Below, one piece after another: positions 42,854 through 47,471 of a DNA stretch of 49,824 nt. A program made the position numbers and the translations under genes. The notes beneath the pieces were generated by a model. The model was not told the origin of the DNA, made no database searches, and worked only from the letters and a program-made list of their open reading frames with translations. The DNA comes from Candidatus Dadabacteria bacterium. GTDB lineage: Bacteria > Desulfobacterota_D > UBA1144 > Nemesobacterales > UBA2774. Each line of letters opens with the position of its first letter. Within the stretch, counting starts at the first letter, position 1. The stretch lies in NCBI GenBank assembly GCA_020849425.1, contig JADLGH010000050.1:1-49824 (forward strand), in the 5' to 3' direction.

Positions 42854-43042
42854 GAAGTCGTCGTCTCCCGTGTAATGGAACCACAACATATCACATTTTG
42901 AGGCCGATTGTAAACCCGTACGGCTTAGTGGACGGCCGTTTTTCAAACGGGCGGGCCGGAGGCGGCTTTTATTGCAAAAAAAACACCCCTTATGTACAAT
43001 TAATGACAGCTAGAGGAAACATACCGGAGGCACAACCTAAGT

Positions 43043-44005
43043 ATGAGCACAGAGAATCCGTTCGTAGCCCTCAAAGAAGAGATGGACAAGCTGGTAGTGG
43101 GGCACGAGGAAGTGAAAATAGCGCTCCTCCTGGGAGTTATAGCGAGGGAGCATATTTACGTGGAAGGCCCGCCCGGGACCGCGAAGACGATGCTCGCGGA
43201 AATTATATCGGGAGCGGCGCAGCTGAAATTCTTCTTTTATCAGCTCCACAGGGACACGAGGCTCTCGGAGCTTCTGGGTGACCTCGTGATATCCAAAGAG
43301 CTGACCGAGACCGGGGAGGTCATAAAGCAGAGGGTCGTCAAGGGCGGTATATTGACGGCCGAGATATGCCTCCTGGACGACATATCCCGCGCCCCCGGAG
43401 AGTCGCTCAACGTACTTTTACGAATACTCAACGAAAGAAAATTCTTCGACGACAGCATTCCGCTTTTGACCGCTATCGCCACGAGCAACCCGACGGCCGA
43501 CGAGTATTACAACGAGCCGCTCGACCCGGCGAACCTGGACAGGTTCGTGCTCCAGATAAGTTCGCAGGGGCTTTCCTACGGAAAGAAGTGGGACGAGGCG
43601 AAGGAGGTCATAAGGCTCTACACAGAGAGGCCGGCCGAGTACCAGGTGCCGCCGAGGGTCAGCAAGGAAGTCTTCGACGAGTACTACCAGAAGCTGGGGA
43701 GCGTCGCTATTCCGGAAGAGGTGCAGGAAGCGCTCGCCAATTTCGTGGCGACGCTCATCGAGGATTACGGGTGCGACGAGTCGAACTCCATGATTTCCGA
43801 CAGGACGTTCTTCGTGAAATCGCTCAAGATAATGAGGTCGCACGCCCTTCTCCACGGCAGGGAGGTCTGCACGCTCGAAGATCTGAACGCCCTTAAATAC
43901 ATGACGGCTTTCCGTATCCCTGAAGAGGTCTTTTTACAGCTCGACCAGATAATCGAGGACCTCACGACCAAAAAAAAAAAGACAGGGACCGGGGGAACGA
44001 GCTAG
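43043..44005 (+). CDS. MoxR/RavA-type AAA+ ATPase
   Basis: A 320-residue AAA+ ATPase. Walker A is G-P-P-G-T-A-K-T (residues 42-49). Walker B is L-L-D-D (110-113), with Asp where the catalytic Glu is normal. I-L-N-E-R-K-F and N-L-D-R-F-V-L resemble RavA, and the C-terminal helical lid ends at a run of Lys. MoxR ATPases act with VWA proteins to assemble metal cofactors or complexes. The 0 frame ends at 44005 just after A11-G (43970-43981); a VWA frame continues in -1. See the finding on frameshifting. CGGAGGC precedes the ATG. Confidence 0.92.
   Translation: MSTENPFVALKEEMDKLVVGHEEVKIALLLGVIAREHIYVEGPPGTAKTMLAEIISGAAQLKFFFYQLHRDTRLSELLGDLVISKELTETGEVIKQRVVKGGILTAEICLLDDISRAPGESLNVLLRILNERKFFDDSIPLLTAIATSNPTADEYYNEPLDPANLDRFVLQISSQGLSYGKKWDEAKEVIRLYTERPAEYQVPPRVSKEVFDEYYQKLGSVAIPEEVQEALANFVATLIEDYGCDESNSMISDRTFFVKSLKIMRSHALLHGREVCTLEDLNALKYMTAFRIPEEVFLQLDQIIEDLTTKKKKTGTGGTS
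43970..43981 (+). promoter_or_regulatory. Candidate -1 frameshift site, A11-G
   Basis: Eleven A then G. In the ATPase frame the heptamer is A-AAA-AAG (43975-43981), the same as the slippery site of E. coli dnaX. A -1 slip skips the stop at 44003-44005 and joins the VWA frame. GAGGA (43955-43959) lies about 15 bases upstream as a weak internal Shine-Dalgarno; downstream, CAGGGAC (43983-43989) can pair with GTCCTCTG (44019-44026) with one bulged base. Confidence 0.55.
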
Positions 44006-45162
44006 AGCAGCAGGAACCGTCCTCTGAATTCGATCAGGACCTGCCCGGGGAGGAATCCAAGCAGGAGATACCCGACGAGCAGGCCAGGAAGGAATCGCAG
44101 AAGGACGACCTCTCGGAAGCCCGCAAGACCTTTTTCCAGGCCTTGAAGGAGCTCAAGGACAACATCCAGAAAGAGACCAGCATGGTCCCGCCCGAGGACC
44201 TGAACATCCCGTCCGATGCGACGGGCGAGACCACGGACGACGGGCAGAAGCGGGACGAGAAGGAACCCCCGAAATCCAACAAGGTTTTCGCCAGCAAGTC
44301 TCCCGACCCGGGCGACGAGGAAGATTACTGGATCGGCGGGAAGAAGAACCTGGAATCCGCCGACAACGTAAAGGTCATAATGAAGGTTCTCGAAGGGAAC
44401 TTTCAGCGTAACATCGCGCTCCGCGGCGACCATCCGGGCGGGCTTCCGAGGAAATGGAAGCGCATGAGCCATTTCGACGAGGTGGAGGACGTGGACCCCT
44501 CGGAGATCATGATCTGGAGCGAGCACACGACCCCGAGCCTCCCCCGCGTGCACAGGCGAGAAAAGGAGATGATGGGCGGCGAGATCGCCATTCTCCGGGA
44601 CGTCAGCACGTCGATGATGGGCGTCTACAGCGAGTGGTCGTCTTCCGTCGTAAGGGGCGTCATCGAGCTTGCGAGGTCGAAGAAGATGCGCGTCGGGTAT
44701 ATAGAATTCAACCACCGCTCGTATAAATACAAGAGGAACTCGAAGTTCTTCACCAGGGATTACAACTGGATGATGGAGCTCGCCTCGAAGACCGAGTGCT
44801 CGGGCAACACGAACTACGAGGACGCGCTCAAGGACGCGCTTACGGAGTTCAGGGGAAGGGGCCTTCGGAACAAGCACATACTGTTCATCACCGACGGCAT
44901 ACCGACCTCGGGCGACTGCGACGTTCTCGCCGAGAGGGTGAGGGCGAAAAAGCTCGGCGTGTGCATACATTCGATATTCATCGGATCGAAGAACTATCCG
45001 CGCATTCTCCAGAAGATTTCGGGCGAGACGAGCGGGACCCAGTTCATCGCCACGCGGAGAAAGGACGGGACCATACGCATCGAGAGAAGGGACAAGAGCT
45101 ATATCGTCCCGATACACGACGAGAAGTCGCAGGTGGACCCGTTCAGCAAGGTCTTCGCGTAA
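43981..45162 (+). CDS. VWA-domain protein, probably made as a -1 frameshift extension of the MoxR ATPase
   Basis: The -1 frame is open from 43924 to the stop at 45162 with no ATG before 44182, and the TTG at 44143 and ATG at 44182 lack ribosome sites. Read from the slippery site it adds 393 residues: an acidic, Gln/Glu/Asp-rich linker (~130 residues), then a VWA domain with an intact MIDAS, D-V-S-T-S (Asp codon 44599-44601), and F-I-T-D-G-I-P. The fusion would be ~706 residues, the AAA+/acidic linker/VWA plan of chelatase D subunits. If translated alone it would be a ViaA/CoxE-like partner of MoxR. It ends 88 bases before mltG. Confidence 0.8.
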   Translation, partial: DRDRGNELEQQEPSSEFDQDLPGEESKQEIPDEQARKESQKDDLSEARKTFFQALKELKDNIQKETSMVPPEDLNIPSDATGETTDDGQKRDEKEPPKSNKVFASKSPDPGDEEDYWIGGKKNLESADNVKVIMKVLEGNFQRNIALRGDHPGGLPRKWKRMSHFDEVEDVDPSEIMIWSEHTTPSLPRVHRREKEMMGGEIAILRDVSTSMMGVYSEWSSSVVRGVIELARSKKMRVGYIEFNHRSYKYKRNSKFFTRDYNWMMELASKTECSGNTNYEDALKDALTEFRGRGLRNKHILFITDGIPTSGDCDVLAERVRAKKLGVCIHSIFIGSKNYPRILQKISGETSGTQFIATRRKDGTIRIERRDKSYIVPIHDEKSQVDPFSKVFA

Positions 45163-45249: not shown

Positions 45250-46257
45250 TCAGCGCCGGCGCTGGTAGCGGTTGACTGCGTTTACGTGGTCGCGGTAGCT
45301 GGTCGAGAAGACGTGGGTGCCGTCGCCCCTCGAAACGAAGTAGAGATAATCGACCGGCGCGGGATTCAGCGCCGCCTCTATCGAACCCTTTCCGGGATTG
45401 GCTATGGGACCGGGCGGAAGGCCCTTTATGACGTAAGTGTTGTACTGTGTCATCGTGCGAAGGTCCCCCCTCCTGAGGTTCCCGTCGAAATCGTCCCCCA
45501 TGCCGTATATGACCGTGGGATCGCTTTCGAGCCTCATTCCGGCCTTTAGCCTGTTGTGGAAGACGGCCGAGACGAGGGGGCGCTCCTTTACGTCGCCCGC
45601 CTCTTTTTCTATCATCGACGCCAGGATTATTATTTCGTTGTCCGTGAGATTGACCCGGTTTTTCATTCCGTCGAAAGACGCGTAGACGGACCTGAACCTG
45701 TCGGTCATCATCCCGGCGAATTCTTCGGGCGTAACCCCTTTTTTGTACGTGTAGGTTTCGGGGTAGAGATACCCCTCGGCCCCCGTTAAGGGTGGACCCG
45801 GGAGGCCGGCGACGAGGGAAGAGTCGGAGGCCGCGGCAAGGAAATCTGTACTCGGAAAGAGGCCCTTTTTGTCGAGCAGCGCGGCGGTTTCCTTTACCGT
45901 AAGGCCCTCGGGAATGGTGACCCTGTGAAGGAGGACGTCGCCCTTTGTTATCTTGGCGAGGACGTCGGAGAGGGTCGCTCCTTTTTTAAACTCGTATTCC
46001 CCCGCCTGGAGCCTGTTCTGGACCCCCGACGCGACAGAATAGTAGAGAAAGAGCCGGCCGCTCGCAACCACCCCCTCGTCTTCGAGCATGGAGGCTATGC
46101 CCCGGACGCCCTTCCCTTTCGGTATGTCCACGACGGTATCCGTCTTTACGGAGGGAACTTCGTTGATGTAGTAGTAGAGACCGAGCGCGGAGGCCCCGGC
46201 AAGGAGAAAAAGAGCAAATACGAGAATAAGAAGAAGCTTTAATTTACCTGAGCGCAT
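45250..46257 (-). CDS. mltG: Endolytic transglycosylase MltG
   Basis: A 335-residue inner-membrane murein lytic enzyme that cuts nascent glycan strands and sets their length. One transmembrane helix (residues 7-29) is followed by a LysM-like region (V-D-I-P-K-G-K-G-V and Y-E-F-K-K-G) and the YceG catalytic domain: L-T-G-A-E-G-Y-L-Y-P-E-T-Y, I-L-A-S-M-I-E-K-E-A with the catalytic Glu, and L-E-S-D-P-T-V-I-Y. The terminal Y-F-V-S-R-G-D-G-T-H-V-F is typical. It follows proB by 20 bases and has no Shine-Dalgarno, so coupling to proB is likely. Confidence 0.95.
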   Translation of the reverse strand: MRSGKLKLLLILVFALFLLAGASALGLYYYINEVPSVKTDTVVDIPKGKGVRGIASMLEDEGVVASGRLFLYYSVASGVQNRLQAGEYEFKKGATLSDVLAKITKGDVLLHRVTIPEGLTVKETAALLDKKGLFPSTDFLAAASDSSLVAGLPGPPLTGAEGYLYPETYTYKKGVTPEEFAGMMTDRFRSVYASFDGMKNRVNLTDNEIIILASMIEKEAGDVKERPLVSAVFHNRLKAGMRLESDPTVIYGMGDDFDGNLRRGDLRTMTQYNTYVIKGLPPGPIANPGKGSIEAALNPAPVDYLYFVSRGDGTHVFSTSYRDHVNAVNRYQRRR

Positions 46258-46277
46258 ATACGGAACGGCTTAATAGT

Positions 46278-47417
46278 CTACCCGGCGATTATGACGAGGT
46301 CGTCCCTGTGAATGACCTCGTCGCTGTACTTGTGGCCGAGAACGGCTTCTATGTCGCGGGTGCTCCTACCCATGATGAGCTTTATGTCCTCCGAGCTGTA
46401 GGATGTGAGCCCGCGCGCTATCTCGGCGCCGGATTCGTCGACGCACGTGACCGATTCACCGACGCCGAACTTTCCCTTTACGTCCTTTATGCCCGAGGGG
46501 AGAAGGCTCTTACCTTTAGAGGATATCGCATTCCTCGCCCCGTCGTCGATTATTATCTGCCCGGCCGATCTGAGTGTGAACGCTATCCAGTGTTTTCTCC
46601 GGCTGAGGCTCGCCGCCGAGGGGAGAAAGAGCGTCCCGACTTCCTTGCCGGCGAATAAATCTTCGAGCGTCGATTCTTCCTTGCCGTTCGCGATTATCGT
46701 CGGCACGCCGAACGCCGCGGCCGTCCGCGCGGCCTGTATCTTCGTCTTCATGCCGCCCGTCGTCGTGCGGCCGGACGTATCGCCGGCTATTGACTCGACG
46801 TTTTTATCTATGCGGTCGATGAGGGCTATGAGCTCGGCGTCGCGGCTGCGGCGCGGGTCTTTGTCGTAGAGCCCGCCGATGTCCGTGAGGAGTATGAGGA
46901 GGTCGGCCTCGACGAGGGACGTTACGTGGGCCGCCAGGTTGTCGTTGTCGCCGAGCATGATTTCCTCGACCGCCACTGTGTCGTTTTCGTTTATGATGGG
47001 GATTATGCCCATGCCGAAGAGCGTGGTCAGGGTTTTCCTCGCGTTGAGAAAGCGCTTCCTGTCGGTGAGGTTGTCGTGCGTGAGGAGTATCTGGGCGACC
47101 TTTTCGCCGTAGGACGAGAAGGCCCTTTCGTAGTTTCGTATGAGTGTGCTCTGGCCGCATGCGGCTATGGCCTGCTTCATGGAGACTTCGGTCGGCTTGC
47201 GCGTGAGGCCGAGCTTTTTCATCCCCGAGGCTATCGCCCCGGAGGAGACGACGGCGACGTCGCGCTTCTGGTTTTTGACGGCCGATATGTCCTTCGCCAG
47301 GCGGTCGAAAGCGGACTCGTCCAGTATGCCCCCGTCGTCCGTGAGGACGCTGCTGCCTATCTTTATGATCGCCCTTTTCGTCCGCGATATAATCGCTTTT
47401 CTGTTCGTATTATTCAT
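46278..47417 (-). CDS. proB: Glutamate 5-kinase with PUA domain
   Basis: A 379-residue enzyme that phosphorylates glutamate in the first step of proline synthesis. The amino-acid-kinase domain shows I-I-K-I-G-S-S-V-L, V-V-S-S-G-A-I-A-S-G and I-P-I-I-N-E-N-D-T-V-A, then L-L-T-D-I-G-G-L-Y-D-K-D-P-R and G-G-M-K-T-K. The last ~80 residues are the PUA domain, ending G-H-K-Y-S-D-E-V-I-H-R-D-D. The ATG at 47417 begins the usual N-terminus; the frame continues upstream without a ribosome site. Proline commonly inhibits this enzyme. It is divergent from the tRNA. Confidence 0.95.
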   Translation of the reverse strand: MNNTNRKAIISRTKRAIIKIGSSVLTDDGGILDESAFDRLAKDISAVKNQKRDVAVVSSGAIASGMKKLGLTRKPTEVSMKQAIAACGQSTLIRNYERAFSSYGEKVAQILLTHDNLTDRKRFLNARKTLTTLFGMGIIPIINENDTVAVEEIMLGDNDNLAAHVTSLVEADLLILLTDIGGLYDKDPRRSRDAELIALIDRIDKNVESIAGDTSGRTTTGGMKTKIQAARTAAAFGVPTIIANGKEESTLEDLFAGKEVGTLFLPSAASLSRRKHWIAFTLRSAGQIIIDDGARNAISSKGKSLLPSGIKDVKGKFGVGESVTCVDESGAEIARGLTSYSSEDIKLIMGRSTRDIEAVLGHKYSDEVIHRDDLVIIAG

Positions 47418-47471
47418 GTCGTCTCGGCCATATACATGTGTTCGGATATAAAACTCGTTACGCAAGAGCGC

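Follow-up and report, generated by a model that had tools for sequence, protein, structure and literature searches.

A single gene of a Candidatus Dadabacteria bacterium probably encodes two proteins, a MoxR AAA+ ATPase and a longer product that joins this ATPase to a VWA domain, by means of programmed slippage of RNA polymerase on a run of eleven adenines. The gene lies in a stretch of 49,824 nucleotides (contig JADLGH010000050.1), hereafter the window. A sequence-only reading of the window had proposed that one gene yields MoxR and MoxR-linker-VWA products through -1 frameshifting. The slippage part of this proposal is strongly supported by about 59 genomes, while the -1 ribosomal mechanism was not established.

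Two domains and a slippery run at their junction

The reading frame that begins with ATG at 43043 encodes a MoxR-class AAA+ protein (Table 1). The Pfam profiles PF20030 (E=7e-22), PF07728 and PF07726 all scored above cut-off, and the motifs GPPGTAKT and LLDD are conserved. Downstream, the profile PF00092 (E=2e-8) identified a VWA domain with an intact MIDAS motif. The zero-frame codons over the A11 tract and the G that follows it are AAA AAA AAA AAG ACA GGG ACC GGG GGA ACG AGC TAG, so that the stop falls seven codons past the tract and the short product ends in TGTGGTS. Meanwhile, the -1 frame has no stop from 43924 to the TAA at 45160-45162, and its earliest ATG, GTG or TTG codons after the tract are TTG at 44143 and ATG at 44182. 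Neither of these has a Shine-Dalgarno match (duplexes of -2.5 and -2.9 kcal/mol versus a random-site mean of -3.3). The peptide encoded in the VWA frame between the tract and the first start codon includes GNELEQQEPSSEFDQDLPGEESK. A product of 706 aa results if the frame slips once by -1 at the tract or if the tract gains an A. The zero-frame A-AAA-AAG, the open -1 frame of about 1.2 kb lacking a plausible start, and its acidic linker followed by a MIDAS-containing VWA domain had all been described in the sequence-only reading, and each is borne out.

Table 1. Coordinates of the MoxR-VWA gene and its features in the window
Feature	Position	Strand	Evidence
GGAGG ribosome-binding site of the MoxR reading frame	43026..43030	+	Anti-Shine-Dalgarno duplex -9.5 kcal/mol
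Zero-frame reading frame, 320-aa MoxR AAA+ ATPase, TAG stop	43043..44005	+	Pfam bpMoxR, AAA_5, AAA_3 and AAA_lid_8 above cut-off; RavA in PDB search
Walker A GPPGTAKT	43166..43189	+	Identical in 55/56 relatives
Walker B region CLLDDISRAP (Asp-Asp, usually Asp-Glu)	43367..43396	+	DDISRAP in 56/56 relatives
Putative A11 slippage tract, contains A_AAA_AAG	43970..43980	+	A9-A11 in all readable relatives
Zero-frame TAG ending the short product	44003..44005	+	Position common to 12/12 aligned family members
TGA shutting the third (+1) frame	44025..44027	+	44 nt past the tract
-1 frame: acidic linker and VWA domain, TAA stop, proposed to be accessed by slippage only	43972..45162	+	Third-position substitution bias from the tract onward
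Conserved linker motif LSEARKTFFQALKELKDNIQKE in the VWA frame	44110..44175	+	Alignment; begins upstream of every post-tract start codon in frame
VWA domain	44584..45045	+	PF00092, residues 205-358 of P0001
MIDAS motif DVSTS (DxSxS)	44599..44613	+	DxSxS in 56/56 relatives

No other homopolymer of at least nine bases occurs in the window, and the whole 2.0-Mb draft genome holds just six A/T runs of at least nine, which argues that a run placed exactly at the domain junction is not due to chance. The two other MoxR-like genes of this genome were examined, and neither has a comparable run. They also differ at Walker B, where both read ADEINRA, with the catalytic Glu in its position; in the window's protein (43376-43396) and in essentially all of the 56 relatives, the motif is LDDISRAP, and Asp takes the place of the catalytic Glu that MoxR proteins have. 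Upstream of the MoxR-VWA gene, an A8 run (42976-42983) lies within a promoter-like match (42972-43000), and several relatives have an A9 at about -67 from the start. This upstream run may serve as a promoter element, or slippage may occur there as well, close to initiation.

The MoxR protein scored 68.9 bits with the NCBIfam RavA equivalog, for which the cut-off is 681, indicating a relative of RavA and not RavA itself. The Mg/Co chelatase profile PF01078 gave a partial match over 39 residues (E=1.5e-4), much weaker than that of bpMoxR, and the BchD-ChlD profile gave 19.7 bits against a cut-off of 499.55. The chelatase large subunit (CobN/ChlH, PF02514) exceeded its cut-off in 2 of the 58 phylum genomes and in none of the window's family, with positive controls detected; its gene is absent from 55 of the 58, and the 56th genome has only a sub-cut-off fragment. 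The likeness to chelatase I and D subunits that had been drawn from the sequence thus stands as an analogy, and membership in that family does not. The full CobN-type gene is found only in the phylum's two f5 genomes, L127 and L128 (G019 and G023), where the VWA protein is also extended at its end. A stand-alone relative of the VWA domain at E 1e-15 or better was found in none of 387 genomes; the domain occurred only with this MoxR. A plasmid search was negative. An AlphaFold2 model of an in-frame fusion reached a mean pLDDT of 42 from an alignment of 8 rows and was left unused.

The run is universal, and the frame relation is not

The MoxR gene is present in 54 of 58 phylum genomes, including 43 of the 43 good ones. 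In two of the 54, the contig ends short of the junction, leaving 52 readable junctions, all of which carry A9, A10 or A11 at the MoxR end. Outside the phylum, a sample of 387 genomes and small follow-up searches yielded seven genomes from three further phyla, in which MoxR and VWA are fused in frame and the run, A10 or A11, is again present (7/7). The run is therefore found in every one of the roughly 59 readable genomes. In 41 genomes, all of them from the phylum, the VWA frame is at -1. In 15 it is in frame, namely in the seven outside the phylum and in eight within it, which belong to families f4 and f2 and have single reading frames of about 700 codons. Two genomes (G047 and G019) have the VWA frame at +1 and an A9, but their close relatives have A10 and these assemblies consist of few contigs; we suspect a homopolymer deletion in assembly, and both were kept out of the evidence. 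In the comparison of junctions that the sequence-only reading had called for, the conserved A-run was confirmed and the constant frame relation was not.

The context of the run varies. All three codon phases (0, 1 and 2) and a following G, C or T are represented among the relatives, many of which have no AAG at the run. Both the window and the listed -1 relatives carry a zero-frame A_AAA_AAR heptamer. The mltG (yceG) and proB genes lie downstream on the opposite strand (45250-47465), as they do in L033 and in L037, an in-frame relative, the names being read off the translations. By this comparison, the MoxR-VWA gene stands alone, in a conserved neighbourhood with no obvious functional link. 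A second copy in one of the seven genomes outside the phylum (L071 in G153) is an in-frame MoxR-VWA paralogue with no A-run, a natural control from which it follows that a MoxR-VWA protein does not require the run.

Homopolymers are error-prone and the assembly is a draft of 113 contigs, so an error of sequencing or assembly, or a decayed gene, has to be weighed. We regard this as extremely unlikely. Twelve more genomes of the window's family, each assembled independently, have the same A11 and the same frame relation, and all other readable genomes have A9-A11, which rules out a sequencing slip at the tract. Decay is opposed by purifying selection on both the MoxR and the VWA parts. One locus, L062 (G042:C6), the last of the 52 readable in the phylum, has both parts broken by several stops and shifts, in an assembly of 7 contigs; this breakage probably reflects poor assembly quality.

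The distribution of run lengths also bears on phase variation, in which slippage during DNA replication would alter the run, so that some cells have the fusion switched on and others have it off. Contingency loci do rely on long homopolymers, and the run does vary from A9 to A11 between lineages, but neither its length nor its frame relation changes within a family: all 13 readable genomes of f1 have A11, and every intact genome of f6 has A10. A switch should leave both states among close relatives. We consider such a switch very unlikely.

Selection maintains the run

The lysine codons in the core of the run are AAA in 56 of 56 sequences, compared with 29-80% AAA at 13 other conserved lysine columns. 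We mapped the run on a tree of the 56 genes, built from the protein minus most of the linker; this is a quick tree and some of its forks are weak. The frame relation changed at least five times on it (three without the two +1 cases) and the run length or flank 13 times, with zero losses of the run.

Past the run, only the VWA frame is open in every genome, and the two other frames are shut within about 50 nt. These stops are nearer than expected from positions elsewhere in the same genes (P ~2e-4 for 11 lineages combined; P ~0.003 for the in-frame lineages alone), the P values being approximate, as lineages were treated as independent and represented by a typical value. In the in-frame lineages outside the phylum, the -1 stop comes 0-8 nt past the run (19 nt in one). 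If the short product is conserved, the in-frame genomes need an out-of-frame stop close to the run. The third-frame stops of the out-of-frame lineages were no nearer than chance (P=0.34).

A run that is never lost, AAA codons in its core, and other frames that close soon after it indicate that selection acts on the run and preserves the capacity for slippage, no matter which of the two products is made by default. Together with the open new frame at the junction, this is the pattern of a slippage gene.

The linker is reached from the MoxR frame

In family f1, differences in the VWA frame from the run onward amount to 0.23, 0.15 and 0.53 at codon positions 1, 2 and 3, and f6 and f8 show the same pattern. 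The linker motif LSEARKTFFQALKELKENI is common to out-of-frame and in-frame genomes and starts ahead of any start codon in the VWA frame. In three relatives (L022, L050 and L052), the stretch from the run to the VWA match contains no start codon whatsoever. These comparisons indicate that the linker is coding in the VWA frame and that ribosomes must arrive there from the MoxR frame.

The same observations weigh against two separate proteins, that is, a MoxR and an independently started VWA protein expressed by translational coupling, with the run being incidental. MoxR and VWA partners are usually encoded by separate genes, as in RavA-ViaA, NorQ-NorD and CbbQ-CbbO. Here, however, the three relatives offer no start, the first starts in the window have no Shine-Dalgarno, the conserved linker lies upstream of them, and there are 15 genomes with in-frame fusions and a run that is universal. 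Relatives with a separately started VWA gene and no run, which would have spoken against a shared gene, did not occur among the readable relatives. Separate initiation is thus highly improbable.

RNA polymerase or ribosome

We propose that the unslipped mRNA of the window's genome would be translated into the 320-aa MoxR ATPase. Where RNA polymerase inserts an extra A into the transcript (A12), or drops two, translation would run on normally into the VWA frame and yield the 706-aa MoxR-linker-VWA protein, which would share its ATPase domain with the short product. In relatives whose DNA is in frame, slippage would have the opposite effect and yield the short MoxR, since neither of the other frames extends far past the run.

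Several features favour polymerase slippage over a -1 ribosomal shift. The run has at least nine A's in all relatives, as in transcriptional slippage of the Thermus dnaX type; its phase and flank vary; and it is kept in the in-frame genes. For 25 downstream regions, folding z-scores ranged from +1.6 to -3.8, with no consistent structure that could act as a stimulator hairpin, and the relatives compared have no conserved Shine-Dalgarno stimulator near the run. Finally, tRNA-Lys(CUU) is encoded beside tRNA-Lys(UUU) in the window's genome, and in members of f1, f4, f5, f6 and two other phyla (pattern search and ARAGORN); a pattern search did not find tRNA-Lys(CUU) in f8. The presence of this tRNA was given as the reason why Thermus thermophilus dnaX, a case of transcriptional slippage, may use the polymerase and E. 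coli dnaX does not (reviewed in PMC5009743).

The ribosome could also produce the same two proteins, through a programmed -1 frameshift at A_AAA_AAG or A_AAA_AAA as in chlD or E. coli dnaX; we give this possibility less credence. Every trustworthy out-of-frame assembly needs a -1 shift and holds a zero-frame A_AAA_AAR heptamer, A_AAA_AAG is a classic ribosomal shift site, and the immediate -1 stops of the in-frame lineages outside the phylum recall dnaX gamma. Six or seven A's suffice for ribosomal slippage, yet the run is 9-11 long. In chlD cassettes in E. coli, however, shifting rose from 10% with A7 to 40% with A9 and 63% with A11 (PMC3711429), so run length does not cleanly separate the two mechanisms. 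The constant need for -1 in nearly all out-of-frame genomes fits ribosomal slippage, although one added A predicts the same, and the two +1 genomes, which would oppose a ribosomal shift, have doubtful assemblies. Against the ribosome stand the missing stimulators, a tRNA-Lys(CUU) expected to weaken slipping on AAG, the retention of the run in the 15 in-frame genomes, its varying codon phase and next base, and the many relatives with no AAG. The polymerase reading is itself weakened by the third-frame stops, since these are needed only for transcript slippage and lie no closer than chance in the out-of-frame lineages. Polymerase and ribosome slippage may both act.

A proposed role in the AAA+ ring

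MoxR ATPases act together with VWA partners. If the gene works as proposed, mixed hexamers would be expected, mostly of plain MoxR with one or a few subunits bearing a VWA arm, a composition like that of the NorQ hexamer, which binds one NorD (PMC9976466). The arm would hold the client through its MIDAS site. A finger of the VWA partner is inserted into the ring (PMC13036017). With plain subunits in the majority and VWA-armed ones in the minority, such a ring would need no second gene, and slippage could set the number of VWA-bearing subunits per AAA+ ring. We lean towards an ancient device, kept in four phyla, in which RNA polymerase slippage on the A-run sets the VWA-armed share of the ring; the default product would swap and the slip site stay, making slippage, and not the frame, the conserved trait.

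To our knowledge, few cases of recoding in cellular genes are conserved across a whole phylum. If our reading is true, the MoxR/VWA gene would add to them a case from a class of chaperones, and it makes testable how the ratio of AAA+ subunit to VWA partner is set in MoxR machines. The flips between in-frame and out-of-frame states at a constant slip site offer a natural experiment for telling transcriptional from ribosomal slippage. Automatic annotation will report such genes as a MoxR gene plus a truncated VWA gene, or label them as frameshifted.

Comparison with known systems

We found no prior report of slippage or frameshifting in MoxR/VWA genes in the open-access literature. The principle is known from dnaX and chlD; the gene family differs. 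The chlD frameshift genes of Mg and Co chelatases (PMC3711429, PMC9227772) likewise have a zero-frame AAA+ ATPase, slippage on an A-run at its end (A7-A11 tested), a longer -1 product, one gene for the small and medium subunits, and in-frame fusions in other species. In contrast, the ATPase described here is MoxR-class (bpMoxR, RavA-type lid), nearly all genomes have no CobN/ChlH partner, no downstream structure is conserved, and the run is retained in the in-frame fusions too.

Thermus thermophilus dnaX (PMC5009743) resembles the in-frame relatives, with an A9-type run, the long product in frame, early stops in both other frames and two tRNA-Lys. It belongs to another protein family, and the default of the window's family is the short product, with slippage predicted from sequence. 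E. coli dnaX shares the zero-frame A_AAA_AAG and an AAA+ protein made with and without a C-terminal part, but here the roles of the long and short products are reversed, there is no conserved hairpin or upstream Shine-Dalgarno, and the cognate tRNA-Lys(CUU) is present. NorQ-NorD, CbbQ-CbbO and RavA-ViaA combine a MoxR hexamer, which for our proteins is expected only, with a MIDAS-bearing VWA partner. In those systems the partner is a separate gene product with no ATPase domain, whereas the VWA domain described here is attached to a subunit with the same ATPase domain as the short product.
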